A stretch of 64,000 bases of DNA, taken from positions 62,001-126,000 of the IMG/VR virus record IMGVR_UViG_3300008116_000011. One strand, given 5' to 3'. Below, piece by piece: positions 31,025-45,372 of this stretch. Position numbers and translations under genes: made by a program. Position 1 is the stretch's first letter; every line of letters starts with the position of its first letter. The stretch is from a virus. The notes below the pieces were generated by a model that was given only the letters and a program-made list of their open reading frames with translations, ran no database searches and was not told the DNA's origin.

Positions 31025-31186
31025 TTAAAGTTCTTCTAATATTCCAAGTATTTCTGCTAGTACAAATCCTAATCCTGCGAATTCAAAATCTTGATACATA
31101 ATACCAACACCAGCTATAATTCTAATAACTGATTTGGCTATACTAAACCAGAAATGACTTTTTGATTTACTTTCCTTTGGTTGCAT
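31025..31186 (-). CDS. 53-aa small membrane-like protein
   Basis: An intact 53-codon frame. It starts at 31186, overlaps the end of the phosphoribosyltransferase gene by 20 bases, and ends 12 bases before the dCTP deaminase-like gene. The protein has a Lys/Ser-rich N-terminus and two hydrophobic stretches (FWFSIAKSVIRIIAGVGIMY and FAGLGFVLAEILGIL). It probably inserts in the membrane. No family recognised. It fills an otherwise unexplained gap. Confidence 0.62.
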   Translation of the reverse strand: MQPKESKSKSHFWFSIAKSVIRIIAGVGIMYQDFEFAGLGFVLAEILGILEEL

Positions 31187-31580
31187 AGTCTGCTATTGTT
31201 TGTGAATCTTTTTGTTCCCATGGATAAACTATCCATTCATTTTCAGAAGCTAACTTCCACCAAAAATGAGGTTCATATTCTGATGCTGTTTTATAATGAA
31301 GAGTAGCTGTGTAGACATTATCTTCAAATTTAAAACGTTTTAATGTTTTACCTGAGTCGCAAATGTCATCTACAATTAGGATGTTGCTTGTTATTCCTTT
31401 AATGTTAGCTTGAGACACAAAAGGGATATTTAACTTATGAGACAATATAACTGCTGGAATTAATCCTCCACGAGGTAAACCTCCAATAGCTGCTATCTCA
31501 TATTTGCTGTTGGTGATGTTAATGGCTAGTCTTTCAACAGCATCATCAATATCACTCCATGATATAAAACGTTTATCCAT
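31167..31580 (-). CDS. Phosphoribosyltransferase
   Basis: A 137-aa type I phosphoribosyltransferase. The PRPP-binding motif is ILIVDDICDSGKTL near residue 69, preceded by IAAIGGLPRGGLIPAVIL near residue 30, which resembles xanthine/hypoxanthine PRTases such as Gpt. It probably salvages a purine base to its nucleotide. It shares its last base with the folE stop, so it is coupled to folE. Whether it works with the deazaguanine bases made by the Que enzymes is an open question. Confidence 0.85.
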   Translation of the reverse strand: MDKRFISWSDIDDAVERLAINITNSKYEIAAIGGLPRGGLIPAVILSHKLNIPFVSQANIKGITSNILIVDDICDSGKTLKRFKFEDNVYTATLHYKTASEYEPHFWWKLASENEWIVYPWEQKDSQTIADYATKGK

Positions 31581-32308
31581 TATCTATAACCTTCCATTCC
31601 TAATTTAAGCATTTCAAGTACCTCAGCTTTAGCTGTTCTAGTATGATCAGCAAATACACCTGATACCTCACTTGTAACCATTGATGCTCCAAAATGTTTT
31701 ACTCCTCTACAACTAACACAGTTGTGGAATGAATGTACTACTACCATTACACCAATGTTATCTTCACAAATAGTATCTACAGCATTGTGTATTGCAACTG
31801 TAAGTTGTTCTTGAATAGCACCTCTACGAGCAAAATGCTCTACAATACGATTTAATTTACTTAAACCTACTACTTTACCATCTTTACCAGGTACATAAGC
31901 AACGTGTGCTTTACCTAAAATTGCTTGGTGGTGGTGAGAACACATTGATACAATTGGAATATCTCTTTCAAGTACAATACCTGTGTAACCATCAGAAGGG
32001 AATGCTGTGATGTCTGTAGGTAACTCATAACGACCTTTCCATAGGTCATTAACGTATGCTTTAGCTACACGGCGAGGTGTTTCCATACTATTTGGATCAT
32101 TTCTCCAATCAACACCCAATGCATCTAAAAATTCACCGTATGCTTTTTCAGCTTGATCAATTATTGCTGTTTTCTCATCTGAATTCAGTGAACGATGATT
32201 ACCAGCATCAATTAATGATTTTAATTGAAGTGACATTCCGTTTGCAAAGCCGGGTTGTGCTGTTTCTAAAGATTCAACTTGTGTAACTTTTCGTCTTTTA
32301 TTTTCCAT
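31580..32308 (-). CDS. folE: GTP cyclohydrolase I
   Basis: A 242-aa GTP cyclohydrolase I, which opens GTP to dihydroneopterin triphosphate, the first precursor of queuosine-type deazaguanines. It has ETPRRVAKAYVNDLWKG near residue 77, the zinc-binding MCSHHHQAILGKAHVAYVP near residue 122, SKLNRIVEHFARR near residue 148, and NCVSCRGVKHFGASM near residue 203 with the third zinc ligand. All catalytic landmarks are present. It has a promoter with both elements (32328-32360). Confidence 0.95.
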   Translation of the reverse strand: MENKRRKVTQVESLETAQPGFANGMSLQLKSLIDAGNHRSLNSDEKTAIIDQAEKAYGEFLDALGVDWRNDPNSMETPRRVAKAYVNDLWKGRYELPTDITAFPSDGYTGIVLERDIPIVSMCSHHHQAILGKAHVAYVPGKDGKVVGLSKLNRIVEHFARRGAIQEQLTVAIHNAVDTICEDNIGVMVVVHSFHNCVSCRGVKHFGASMVTSEVSGVFADHTRTAKAEVLEMLKLGMEGYR

Positions 32309-40147: not shown

Positions 40148-40371
40148 AAAACATCTTTATCAAATATAACTATTATTTCTCCTGGGTTATGTGCAGGGAT
40201 ATTATATTCAAAGTTATATTTAGTCAAAACTTCACTTACTATTTTCTTCATAAATTCAGAATATCCAGTAATTATTCTTAAAGGTAGTTGTTTTGAATTA
40301 AGTAATACAAAATTTTCTACCACACCCCATACTTGATGATGATATAAACCATGTAAATCTAATTCTTTCAT
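40144..40371 (-). CDS. Stand-alone Smr domain protein
   Basis: A 75-aa Smr domain, the MutS2-type nicking/endonuclease domain. It has KELDLHGLYHHQVWGVVENF near residue 2 (DLHG motif) and LRIITGYSEFMKKIVSEVL near residue 31 (ITGxG-like motif, with the second glycine changed to Glu). Such domains cut branched DNA or act on RNA. It overlaps the next gene by 4 bases and lies between queE and the glycan genes. Activity is uncertain. Confidence 0.75.
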   Translation of the reverse strand: MKELDLHGLYHHQVWGVVENFVLLNSKQLPLRIITGYSEFMKKIVSEVLTKYNFEYNIPAHNPGEIIVIFDKDVL

Positions 40372-41261
40372 TATACATTTAATGTTTTATTCCAAGCTGC
40401 AATATGCAAACGAGTCAATCCTCTAAATTTATACTTTTTAGCCATTTCAAGAACAAATTGAGTACGCTCTTCAAAATTAGCTACATCATCTAGTCCTGGC
40501 ATACAAACCACGTTGGAAAGAGGTATATTAAGTGGTACGATAAAGTCGCTAAAAATCTCGTGTACATCTTCTTCATTGGATATAACAAATTTAAATTGAT
40601 AGTTTCTATGTTCCATAATACGTTTAAGAGCAGCTTCGTTAAAGCGTTGACTCTTACTCATTCCTGAGTTTGCTAACTTAGGTGAACAGTTGATTTGGTC
40701 TAAATAATCGAATAATAGTTCATCAATTACTACAGTACCATTTGTTTCAATTTCATTAAAAGCTGTTACTTTTCTAACTTTAGATGATTCACCTGTTTCT
40801 AAGTTATATTTTGTAAAAATATTTTTTACGCTAGGATCCTGGTTAATCCAATATTCAAAGAAGTTACAAATTGCTTGTTGGTGTCCTTTAATTGTAGGTT
40901 CACCACCAGTCCAAATAATATGAATAGTACCGTTTTTAATATCATCATAGATACCTTCTTCTTTCCACCTATCAATTAGATATTGGAATTCTTTATCTTC
41001 ACCTCTCCACAACCATTGGCTTGTAGAATCACAAGTCCAAGTTGCTTTACCTTCTTTAACTAAATCACCTTCGAATATTTCTCCGTCCTCTAAATTTTGA
41101 TCTTTCATTAATTGATTTGCAAATTGACGGCTCATACCGCAAGTCAAGTTACAAATACCTAAACGAACAAAGTAAGAGGGCACACCTGAGGAGATACCCT
41201 CGCCTTGGACAGAGTAGAAGTCGGAACTTATTAATAGCTTATTCGGATCAATTTTACTCAT
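40371..41261 (-). CDS. queE: QueE, 7-carboxy-7-deazaguanine synthase (radical SAM)
   Basis: A 296-aa QueE-type protein that would turn 6-carboxytetrahydropterin into 7-carboxy-7-deazaguanine. It has SSDFYSVQGEGISSGVPSYFV near residue 12, LGICNLTCGMS with C37 and C41, and TWTCDS with C77. So the third cluster cysteine is displaced by an insertion of about 33 residues relative to a normal C-x3-C-x2-C site. IHIIWTGGEPTIKGHQQ near residue 113 is the SAM-binding glycine motif. The ATG overlaps the stop of a 41-codon gene by 4 bases. Confidence 0.9.
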   Translation of the reverse strand: MSKIDPNKLLISSDFYSVQGEGISSGVPSYFVRLGICNLTCGMSRQFANQLMKDQNLEDGEIFEGDLVKEGKATWTCDSTSQWLWRGEDKEFQYLIDRWKEEGIYDDIKNGTIHIIWTGGEPTIKGHQQAICNFFEYWINQDPSVKNIFTKYNLETGESSKVRKVTAFNEIETNGTVVIDELLFDYLDQINCSPKLANSGMSKSQRFNEAALKRIMEHRNYQFKFVISNEEDVHEIFSDFIVPLNIPLSNVVCMPGLDDVANFEERTQFVLEMAKKYKFRGLTRLHIAAWNKTLNV

Positions 41262-41716: not shown

Positions 41717-41719
41717 GAG

Positions 41720-41791
41720 TTGTTGTACCAAGATTCGAACTTAGTCTTTATGTTCCGGAAACATACGTGCTATCCCTTACACTATACAACA
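41720..41791 (-). tRNA. tRNA-Arg (anticodon CCG)
   Basis: Folds as a full cloverleaf of 72 bases: acceptor TGTTGTA/TACAACA, D stem GTGT/GCAC with A20 (an arginine identity base), anticodon arm TATGT-TTCCGGA-ACATA giving anticodon CCG with U33, and T arm CTAAG-TTCGAAT-CTTGG. Discriminator A; CCA is not encoded. A CGG-reading tRNA is odd in so AT-rich a genome. It lies directly after a terminator. Confidence 0.88.
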
Positions 41792-41798
41792 AAGGAAT

Positions 41799-41828
41799 AA
41801 AAAAAGGGACTGATTAGGTCCCTTTTTA
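41799..41828 (-). terminator. Strong intrinsic terminator inside the RNA island
   Basis: AAAAAGGGAC (41801-41810) pairs with GTCCCTTTTT (41818-41827) across a 7-base loop. The sense strand continues with TTTTTTT. It is symmetric and could stop both strands. The tRNA-Arg lies immediately after it. Confidence 0.85.
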
Positions 41829-41830
41829 TT

Positions 41831-41924
41831 GAGTACACCTTTCGGTGGTTTGAACAACTCGCAAAGGGTTCTTTGTATAAGCTCAAACCAGGTTCTTTGT
41901 ATAAGCTCAAACCACGGAGTACTT
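41831..41924 (-). ncRNA. Structured RNA with a tandem 24-bp repeat
   Basis: In the sense RNA, GUGGUUUGA (41915-41907) pairs perfectly with UCAAACCAC (41853-41845), AGUAC pairs with GUACU outside it, and CACCGAAAGGUG forms a GNRA-capped hairpin that competes with part of the stem. A perfect 24-bp tandem repeat (41867-41890 and 41891-41914) lies inside, and either copy can form the main stem. No ORF and no cloverleaf fit. A phage-specific stable RNA is likely. Confidence 0.55.
41867..41914. repeat. Perfect tandem duplication, 2 x 24 bp
   Basis: The unit GGTTCTTTGTATAAGCTCAA plus ACCA occurs twice with no gap and no mismatch (41867-41890, 41891-41914). It forms the core of the structured RNA between the aberrant tRNA and the terminator. 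Confidence 0.95.
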
Positions 41925-41938
41925 AAGTTTCCGAAGCT

Positions 41939-42013
41939 TGGAGCCACCAGTCAGGCTTGATCTGACACCTCTCCCGGTCGGAGTGGGAGGCTTCTACATT
42001 GAACTATGGCGGC
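41939..42013 (-). tRNA. Aberrant tRNA, Gly-like body with an enlarged anticodon loop
   Basis: Acceptor GCCGCCA/TGGTGGC, discriminator T, encoded CCA, the Gly-like TAGTTCAATG D-arm start, and T arm GTCAG-ATCAAGC-CTGAC mark a tRNA. The anticodon arm is unusual: CTCCC/GGGAG closes a 9-base loop (ACTCCGACC). Read as a 9-base loop it centres on TCC (Gly). If an A-C pair is allowed, a 7-base loop has U33 and anticodon CCG (Arg). The D loop is also short. Confidence 0.65.
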
Positions 42014-42162: not shown

Positions 42163-42522
42163 TTATCCAAAAACAGCTACTCCTACTACAGTTCCTATAG
42201 AAGCACAAATTACAAATACTATTTGGTCTACTCTAGTTCCGTAAGTTACCCTTTGCACATTTAATGCAAATGAAATCCAGAAAAAGAAAGCTACAAAAAA
42301 TAGACCAATATCTGCTTGCATTGTTTCATTAGCCCATCTAGCACTAATATTACTTCTCATAAATGCATGAATAAATGCTGACATAAATGCTACTACAAAT
42401 GTAATAGGATTATAACTATTTACTTTAAGATACTCAGTAAATAATGATTTATTACCTTGTGTTAGTATCTTTTTTGCTTTTGGCTTTTTTCGAGGTTGTA
42501 ATTGATTATTTTCCATATTCAT
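42163..42522 (-). CDS. Small membrane protein
   Basis: A 119-aa protein with a basic N-terminus (QPRKKPKAKKILTQ) and hydrophobic segments near residues 40-56, 72-90 and 101-119 (FVVAFMSAFIHAF, then IGLFFVAFFFWISFAL and FVICASIGTVVGVAVFG). It overlaps the queC stop by 17 bases. No family recognised. Confidence 0.65.
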   Translation of the reverse strand: MNMENNQLQPRKKPKAKKILTQGNKSLFTEYLKVNSYNPITFVVAFMSAFIHAFMRSNISARWANETMQADIGLFFVAFFFWISFALNVQRVTYGTRVDQIVFVICASIGTVVGVAVFG

Positions 42523-43333
42523 TTAAAACTTTTTCTACGTGTGCTTTAGCTACTTCCCAAGATACAGGACCTGTTTCATCAGCATACTCTACAGAATCCG
42601 GACGACCCAATTTGATAAATGCTTCAATACGTTCTACTGATGCTGCTGATTTGTAGTCAGAATACCATTTACCTTCAAAATCAGACCATGGATGTTTAAT
42701 AAAGATTGGTTTATAAGATGTATTAGTACGTTTATACACTTCATTAAAATCTAAACCTAATATTTCACAAGCTTTTAAACCATCTTCTAAAATATCAAAT
42801 TTATTCATTTCAAGATATGGAGTATAATGTGATATTCTTTCAGCATCCCAATTACCAATCATAAACGCTTCAAAATCAGCATCACGGAATTCTTGTCTAC
42901 AATCAGGATAAATTGCATGGTCACCAGCATGAATACCCATTGCAATAGCACATTCAGTACTATGTTTAGTTGCTATAGATAATGCTACTGCTTGTATAAG
43001 TGAAGCAAAAATTTTATTACGATTAGGAACAACAGTATCTTTCATGTTGTCTTGTTCGTAATGTCCTTCAGGTACATCCCACCCACCTTCAACTAATGCT
43101 GAGTTGAGTAGTTGAGATAGGCCATCAATTTTGATTATTTGGTGTTTTACTTTGTAAACTAGTCTAGTGTTTACATATTCAACTAATGAAGTTGCTCGTT
43201 CAAGTTCTACTCTATGTTTTTGACCATAATCAAAAGATAGAGCTGTTACTTGATAACCATTTGCTAATAGGTGGAGGAGTAAAGTTGATGAATCCATTCC
43301 ACCTGACAGTGATAATACTGCTTGTTTTTTCAT
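42506..43333 (-). CDS. queC: QueC, 7-cyano-7-deazaguanine (preQ0) synthase
   Basis: A 275-aa QueC that would turn 7-carboxy-7-deazaguanine into preQ0 with ATP and ammonia. It has the PP-loop SLSGGMDSSTLLLHLL with SGGMDS at 10-15, ALSFDYGQKHRVELERA near residue 32, VVPNRNKIFASLIQAVALS near residue 96 and IYPDCRQEFRDADF near residue 133. The C-terminal zinc cysteines of bacterial QueC are all replaced: there is no cysteine after residue about 190, and TSY stands where TCY is usual. It is otherwise complete. Confidence 0.9.
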   Translation of the reverse strand: MKKQAVLSLSGGMDSSTLLLHLLANGYQVTALSFDYGQKHRVELERATSLVEYVNTRLVYKVKHQIIKIDGLSQLLNSALVEGGWDVPEGHYEQDNMKDTVVPNRNKIFASLIQAVALSIATKHSTECAIAMGIHAGDHAIYPDCRQEFRDADFEAFMIGNWDAERISHYTPYLEMNKFDILEDGLKACEILGLDFNEVYKRTNTSYKPIFIKHPWSDFEGKWYSDYKSAASVERIEAFIKLGRPDSVEYADETGPVSWEVAKAHVEKVLNEYGK

Positions 43334-43376: not shown

Positions 43377-44168
43377 CTATTTAATAAACGATTTAAACTT
43401 TTGTACGTTGAATTTAATATCATCTAATTGGGTATCCAAATTCTTTTCAAAATAATGTTCGAGCTTATCTTTAGGTTTAAAGGTAATTCCACTATTAGAA
43501 TATCTTACTCCTTCAGCTCCAACTAGAATTGGATTTGATGTATCACATGAATTAACAAATTTCCAATCACTATAAGCCATAAATTCTTGAGGCAAAGAGC
43601 AACCAAGCAAATGGTGATAGCAGCTTGTATCTATAATATTTTTTTCTACTAATCGCCTAATAAATTCCATTCTACCATACATTTGGGCTTTTAGTATAGG
43701 CATTTCACCTGGATATTCTTTTTGGTATGCTGCACTGGAGTGGTTGAGTGCAATGTATTTGTATCCTAAATCAATTAATGTTTGATATGTAATTATTAAT
43801 TCACCCATATCTTTACCTTGGCATACAGCCATTAATTCAACATCTAATTCTCTCAGTTTTTCTCCATAGTTATTCATCCAATGTTTAGCATTTCTAAGAG
43901 TAGTAATGCTATCATTCCAAGCATCAGGAACAATGAATATATTTGGTTGTAGTAATTCGATTTTTGAAAGTAAATCTTCTGTTGTATGTGTTACTCCTTC
44001 AAATAATCCATTATCCATAATAATGAATCGTTTATCTTTTTTAGATTTTTGAAAGAATAAATTATACTGTTGTGATTGATCTAACAAATGAGGGAGGCAG
44101 TAATCATAGTCATTCCACTCATAAGCATATTGTAGTAGACTAAGAGGTAATTCGTGTGATACTTTCAT
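43377..44168 (-). CDS. dpdA: DpdA-like DNA 7-deazaguanine transglycosylase (TGT superfamily)
   Basis: A 263-aa TGT-fold protein. IIMDNGLFEGV near residue 50 matches the TGT segment TDSGGFQ (first catalytic Asp), LMAVCQGKDMGELI near residue 122 the beta-strand core, LGCSLPQEF near residue 192 the MGVGTPED segment, and NSCDTSNPILVG near residue 211 the nucleophile region FDCVMPTR. It is shorter than tRNA TGTs and lacks their C-terminal zinc site. Next to queC, this fits phage DpdA, which swaps guanine in DNA for preQ0. I infer the role from motifs and context. Confidence 0.78.
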   Translation of the reverse strand: MKVSHELPLSLLQYAYEWNDYDYCLPHLLDQSQQYNLFFQKSKKDKRFIIMDNGLFEGVTHTTEDLLSKIELLQPNIFIVPDAWNDSITTLRNAKHWMNNYGEKLRELDVELMAVCQGKDMGELIITYQTLIDLGYKYIALNHSSAAYQKEYPGEMPILKAQMYGRMEFIRRLVEKNIIDTSCYHHLLGCSLPQEFMAYSDWKFVNSCDTSNPILVGAEGVRYSNSGITFKPKDKLEHYFEKNLDTQLDDIKFNVQKFKSFIK

Positions 44169-44709: not shown

Positions 44710-44918
44710 TGGTATCGTTTTAGTTTTCTTTTTAATTTATCAATTTGTATTTGGCAGTACCATTTTCCCATATTACTAGAGGCTTCATCATACTTTTTCT
44801 GCCATTTATCAATTTTTTTATAAATAGAAGCGTTTGCATTATTAAGAATGTCTATATCATAATAGCTATTATTTTCCAACATAGCTTCTTCCCATTCTTC
44901 TTTTTTAGTTTTACTCAT
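44706..44918 (-). CDS. Unknown small helical protein
   Basis: A 70-aa charged helical protein from the ATG at 44918 (MSKTKKEEWEEAML). A longer form beginning at 44957 overlaps queD by 47 bases; I prefer the 44918 start, which overlaps by 8. The C-terminus is basic (LKRKLKRYQ). It overlaps the thioredoxin start by 4 bases. No family recognised. Confidence 0.6.
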   Translation of the reverse strand: MSKTKKEEWEEAMLENNSYYDIDILNNANASIYKKIDKWQKKYDEASSNMGKWYCQIQIDKLKRKLKRYQ

Positions 44919-45372
44919 ATATAGCAGTATTTTTGTTATGCTCCATAAATTCAACACGTGCTACCTTAACTCGTCCATTTGTTTCCTCCTGGATAAATGT
45001 ATTTAGTTTTTCAAATATATATTTTGCAAATTGTTCAGCACCAACAGCAGGAATAACTCTAATTTGAGCAGCGCCTACTTTATCCATTTCAAGGAATGCA
45101 GGTAAAAACGGATCATCTTCGGCTATAATAGTAGTGTGATCAAACATGTAATCCATCCATGCTTTAGGATTCTTACCATCAATAGTACCTTTAGCACGTT
45201 TCATACCTCCAAAATCCCAAACCCAATTACGTTCATCAAGTTCACCTTCGAACCATACTCTAAACGATACTCCATAACCATGGATATATTTGCAGTGTGT
45301 ACCTTCGGCTCTCCATTGTCTAAAAACACAACTAAAACCGTCAAATAACTTTGTTGATTGAAACTTTGGCAT
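44911..45372 (-). CDS. queD: QueD-like 6-carboxytetrahydropterin synthase
   Basis: A 153-aa QueD/PTPS-type protein that would convert dihydroneopterin triphosphate to 6-carboxytetrahydropterin. It has GTHCKYIHGYGVSFRVWFEGEL near residue 24, NWVWDFGGMKRAK near residue 48, FDHTTIIAEDDP near residue 73 with the catalytic Asp-His, and VEFMEHNKNTAIYE at the C-terminus. HGY replaces the usual HGH and the first zinc histidine (AAH) is absent, so the metal site differs from cellular QueD. The family call is clear, the chemistry less so. Confidence 0.85.
   Translation of the reverse strand: MPKFQSTKLFDGFSCVFRQWRAEGTHCKYIHGYGVSFRVWFEGELDERNWVWDFGGMKRAKGTIDGKNPKAWMDYMFDHTTIIAEDDPFLPAFLEMDKVGAAQIRVIPAVGAEQFAKYIFEKLNTFIQEETNGRVKVARVEFMEHNKNTAIYE

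Follow-up and report, generated by a model that had tools for sequence, protein, structure and literature searches.

We identified in a virus contig a 263-aa protein that is very probably a small phage DNA-guanine transglycosylase (DpdA), supplied with preQ0 by FolE, QueD, QueE and QueC. The DNA that was analysed (the window) is a stretch of 64,000 nucleotides, bases 62001-126000 of a 174,437-base IMG/VR virus contig. The enzyme would be of an already known kind, in a small form to which the common domain databases are blind. From the evidence below we infer its activity, its DNA target, any later conversion of the base (e.g. to dADG) and the extent of dG replacement. Because the protein is kin to the proteins of CP220 and immuto phages and lies in a preQ0 gene context, DNA is the suggested target; size does not enter into this argument. 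Together with the predicted fold and active-site conservation, kinship and context support the DpdA-like identity that a sequence-only reading of the same DNA had proposed, and the protein is almost certainly an enzyme.

The gene lies on the minus strand, and the plus strand over 43377-44168 is riddled with stops. Upstream of it is a 92-aa ORF and downstream, after a gap of 43 bases on the same strand, is queC, as the earlier reading had claimed. The gene and the codons of its catalytic site are:

43377..44168, minus strand, dpdA-like gene (small DpdA), 263 aa
44013-44015, minus strand, dpdA codon D52 (catalytic site)
43923-43925, minus strand, dpdA codon D82 (catalytic site)
43542-43544, minus strand, dpdA codon D209 (predicted nucleophile)

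Standard searches gave little for the window protein itself. A Pfam search with the 263 residues returned no match, including none to PF01702 (tRNA TGT), a model that 4 of 100 relatives matched weakly (best E 0.0052). The DpdA model of NCBIfam was only a weak hit (E 0.021), a single-sequence PDB search yielded nothing usable, and the PHROG search gave no match to PHROG 887 (9g-type DpdA, DpdA1). The full-length match was to phrog_19058 (3e-32), which, like PHROG 20335, is listed as 'unknown function'.

Searching phages by tblastn revealed 37% identity to Campylobacter CP220-like phages and 33% identity to a Flavobacterium immuto phage protein annotated as DNA guanine transglycosylase, with E values against the CP220 and immuto proteins of 2e-27 and 5e-34; further relatives were found in Campylobacter CC_R7 and in Bacillus phages. 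Scans of IMG/VR brought the confirmed relatives to at least hundreds. Identity within the protein's own clade is 64-78% across 32 phage loci, more distant phages also carry the protein, and its sequence is conserved far more than chance would allow. In a tree, the window protein falls into a separate, well-supported clade outside the CP220 and immuto groups. A genome scan with the family alignment found six contigs; most of them belong to MAGs, and a host could not be assigned from so small a number. DUF6610 (PF20314) was remotely matched by 18 of 100 family members (best 1.3e-5). Because the match in three annotated relatives, which spans the C-terminal part, includes the second Asp, DUF6610 may itself be transglycosylase-like.

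The small DpdAs of Campylobacter CP220/CPt10 and Flavobacterium immuto (PHROG 19058) share with the window protein its length, invariant residues, PHROG and preQ0 context, at 33-37% identity. Cui et al. 2023 (NAR) reportedly assigned such small proteins as DpdA3, and we take the window protein to be of the small type so named. As of 2019, CP220 and CPt10 were without a known DpdA (PMC6884629), and according to a passage in PMC8306585, citing Crippen 2019, their dG is 100% replaced by dADG. Judged by its sequence, the CP220 homologue of the window protein fits the missing DpdA of CP220. No enzyme turning dPreQ0 into dADG was identified.

Two further groups are more remote. The 259-aa protein of Cellulophaga phage phiST (PHROG 20335) is homologous over its full length (hhalign E 7.6e-24, TM-score 0.88) and its gene lies beside folE, queE and queD, but identity is ~20%; because queC is not annotated in the phiST stretches examined, phiST possibly inserts a different base. 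The DpdAs of Enterobacteria phage 9g and Arthrobacter phage Mufasa8 (PHROG 887) share DSGAF-like and SCDSS-like motifs, the His196 equivalent and a preQ0 operon, whereas the window protein resembles them only remotely, by profile.

We examined the active site in a family alignment of 119 rows, clustered at 80%. P81, D82 and G189 are invariant, and D52, N53, E57, R166, H186 and D209 are each kept in 118 of 119 rows, the sole row without D52 and D209 being a degenerate tandem copy (see below). The motifs around these residues, IIMDNGLFEG (D52), HHLLGCSLPQEF (G189) and NSCDTSNPILVG (D209), bear out the TGT-segment equivalents named in the sequence-only reading, which had cited the first as MDNGLFEG. 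In an hhalign comparison of the family with six TGTs (E 2.3e-6), D209 aligned with E. coli D264, Q117 with Q187 and LLGCSLPQE (the G189 motif) with LMGVGKPED. Asp280 of Zymomonas TGT is the FDCVMPTR Asp and the equivalent of E. coli D264. The nucleophile of the Zymomonas enzyme is Asp280 (PMC3660597).

When the family was compared with the 9g and Mufasa8 DpdAs (hhalign E 1.2e-5), D52 aligned with the Asp of DSGAF and H186 with DpdA His196. The 9g sequence was used without its first residue, so that its positions are one below those published, and near D209 the alignment runs out of register; there we relied on the motifs SCDSSSW and SCDTSNP instead to pair the residues. We rejected H186 as a strict marker of a DNA-acting enzyme because one of the six TGTs examined also carries His at this position, which is therefore not exclusive to DpdA. 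DpdA2 of Vibrio phage nt-1 lacks DpdA His196 (PMC6884629); the window family differs from it in keeping H186 in 118 of 119 rows, and hhalign to nt-1 DpdA2 gave a probability of 0.6%.

The sequence-only reading had named the absence of a TGT-like barrel as evidence against its proposal, and such a barrel is indeed predicted. An AlphaFold2 model built with 100 sequences was confident (pLDDT 97.1, pTM 0.93) and showed a complete eight-strand barrel, with DSSP strands at residues 2-5, 22-24, 49-51, 77-79, 111-116, 138-142, 184-188 and 205-210. D52 follows strand 3, D82 strand 4, Q117 strand 5 and G189 strand 7, and D209 lies within strand 8, so that the catalytic positions follow the TGT order. 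The best Foldseek matches in the PDB were TGTs (E from 7e-9), with DpdA 7ui4 at rank 9. VIA-align gave Z scores of 17.3-18.1 over ~230 residues across TGT and DpdA structures: 18.1 for archaeosine TGT (ArcTGT; rmsd 2.9, 229 aligned), 17.9 for the DNA preQ0 insertase DpdA 7ui4 (rmsd 3.2, 228 aligned) and 17.6 for Zymomonas TGT (rmsd 3.2, 232 aligned). The bacterial DpdA 7ui4 also shares an HLLG...ID motif by profile, at E 0.63, but is larger than the window protein.

With tRNA TGT (PF01702) the window protein shares the barrel, the catalytic Asp pair and the Gln and Gly motifs, but it is ~110 residues shorter (263 versus 375 aa for E. coli TGT) and is without the zinc subdomain, in which three Cys and one His follow the nucleophile. 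About 37 residues are saved before the first catalytic Asp (D52 versus E. coli D89) and about 57, the zinc subdomain included, after the second (D209 versus D264), the remainder being internal; no conserved CxCx2C...H occurs after D209 in the 119 family members. The sequence-only reading had put the difference at ~100 residues and noted the missing zinc site, and both observations hold. Its further step, that shortness and zinc loss are what one expects of a DNA-acting paralogue, does not: 7ui4 (413 resolved residues) and the DpdA2 of nt-1 (464 aa) are DNA-acting enzymes that exceed TGT in length, and phage DpdAs close to the window protein in size also exist (Mufasa8, 277 aa). Another phage DpdA has 317 aa. 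Size therefore fails to separate DNA from tRNA enzymes. Compactness was rejected as a pointer to a DNA target, DpdAs being both longer and shorter than TGT.

The window encodes all four preQ0-synthesis proteins and, directly downstream of folE, a purine phosphoribosyltransferase (PRT):

42506..43333, minus strand, queC, 275 aa, preQ0 synthase (PF06508, 2.6e-39)
44911..45372, minus strand, queD, 153 aa, 6-carboxytetrahydropterin synthase family (PF01242, 9.1e-16; phrog_2389, 1.1e-40)
40371..41261, minus strand, queE, 296 aa, radical SAM 7-carboxy-7-deazaguanine synthase (phrog_2076, 3.3e-37; NCBIfam QueE models, 5.9e-10 and weaker)
31580..32308, minus strand, folE, 242 aa, GTP cyclohydrolase I, step one of preQ0 synthesis (PF01227, E 2.2e-45, above cut-off)
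31167..31580, minus strand, PRT, 137 aa (PF00156, 2.7e-13)

The QueC protein is 62% identical to that of Flavobacterium immuto phages. Two Rfam tRNA matches lie between queC and queE (41719-42013), a tRNA-Arg (CCG) and a second at 41942-42013; ARAGORN calls only the first. Among the 58 family loci with full flanks (~6-8 kb each side), 57 have preQ0-synthesis genes near dpdA, and queC directly follows dpdA in 46 of 46 close relatives from the window clade.

Because the phage has folE, queD, queE and queC, and no queF, queA or TGT was detected in its possibly incomplete record (nor a formyltransferase), the base inserted by the window clade is likely to be preQ0. The immuto-like group differs in often having queF (55/94), a formyltransferase (59/94) and a kinase (57/94) all near dpdA, each of which was found in 0 of 58 window-clade loci, and because of this difference we infer preQ1-derived bases for that group as opposed to preQ0 for the window clade. 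In that group (locus L001 and immuto-like loci) the formyltransferase that, with queF, accompanies dpdA is PurN-like.

Phage DpdA puts preQ0 into DNA, and 7-deazaguanines guard against restriction (PMC6884629). In the mechanism that we propose, FolE, QueD, QueE and QueC of the phage would make preQ0 from GTP, and DpdA would bind guanine in phage DNA after replication. D209 would attack the deoxyribose C1' and guanine would be released; D52 would be the other catalytic Asp, and the base would be held by D82 and Q117, as happens in TGT. PreQ0 would then occupy the vacated position, and the product would be 7-deazaguanine-modified phage DNA, resistant to restriction.

Since tRNA TGTs share the fold and catalytic residues of the window protein, we weighed a minimal transglycosylase of tRNA (or other RNA) as an alternative; its effect would be more, or altered, 7-deazaguanine in the tRNA of the host or the phage. 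The preQ0 genes of phages without DpdA have been proposed to raise Q in host tRNA (PMC6884629). We regard this role as very improbable: the C-terminal zinc subdomain is missing, QueA, QueF and TGT were not found in the phage, and the homologues belong to phages with reported 7-deazaguanine DNA.

Alternatively, the modified base might enter as a dNTP, with the PRT making a preQ0 nucleotide, a kinase and ribonucleotide reductase converting it to the dNTP, a polymerase inserting it and the barrel protein playing a minor part. A modified-dGTP route has been proposed for Campylobacter phages (PMC6884629), and the window phage has both the PRT directly after folE and an AAA_28 kinase, a gene that adjoins dpdA in Campylobacter and Flavobacterium phages. 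We consider this route very unlikely, given that the family keeps its transglycosylase active site almost without exception, that dpdA stays linked to preQ0 genes, and that the PRT, near dpdA in only 14 of 58 window-clade loci (many without the needed flank), also fits plain salvage of displaced guanine. The kinase of the window phage lies far from dpdA (L287:16808-17335, contig ~162808-163335); in three other phage loci (L001, L002 and L003) an AAA_28 kinase annotated as thymidylate kinase is beside dpdA. The PRT matched a xanthine PRT model at 2.9e-13, below cut-off, and purine PRT structures at 3e-10. It could serve guanine salvage or the making of modified nucleotides, and salvage of the guanine displaced by a DpdA is possible. 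A PRT is also present in immuto and is annotated likewise in phiST.

A related phage, represented by two contigs of identical sequence, carries a tandem dpdA pair (L200:6001-7657 and L306:4211-5870). The second copy is 39% identical to the first and is changed at D52 (N), N53 (C), Q117 (H), H186 (D) and D209 (I), and its model is still a TGT barrel (pLDDT 90, Z 18.5). By analogy with the eukaryotic QTRT1/QTRT2 pair (PMC6165067), the degenerate copy is possibly a non-catalytic partner like QTRT2.

If the window protein is a small DpdA, its invariant residues would be a minimal set for a DNA-acting transglycosylase, and the residue map, combined with the gene-content split (queF and formyltransferase versus none), would predict the base of each clade. 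Because Pfam and PHROGs assign the family no function, many phages from the environment whose genomes are probably modified escape recognition. More speculatively, and in our view doubtfully, the clade may exchange a large part of its dG, or even the whole, for a preQ0-type base, using the minimal 263-aa enzyme and recycling the displaced guanine through the folE-linked PRT; if true, this would be a self-contained pathway for genome-wide base replacement.
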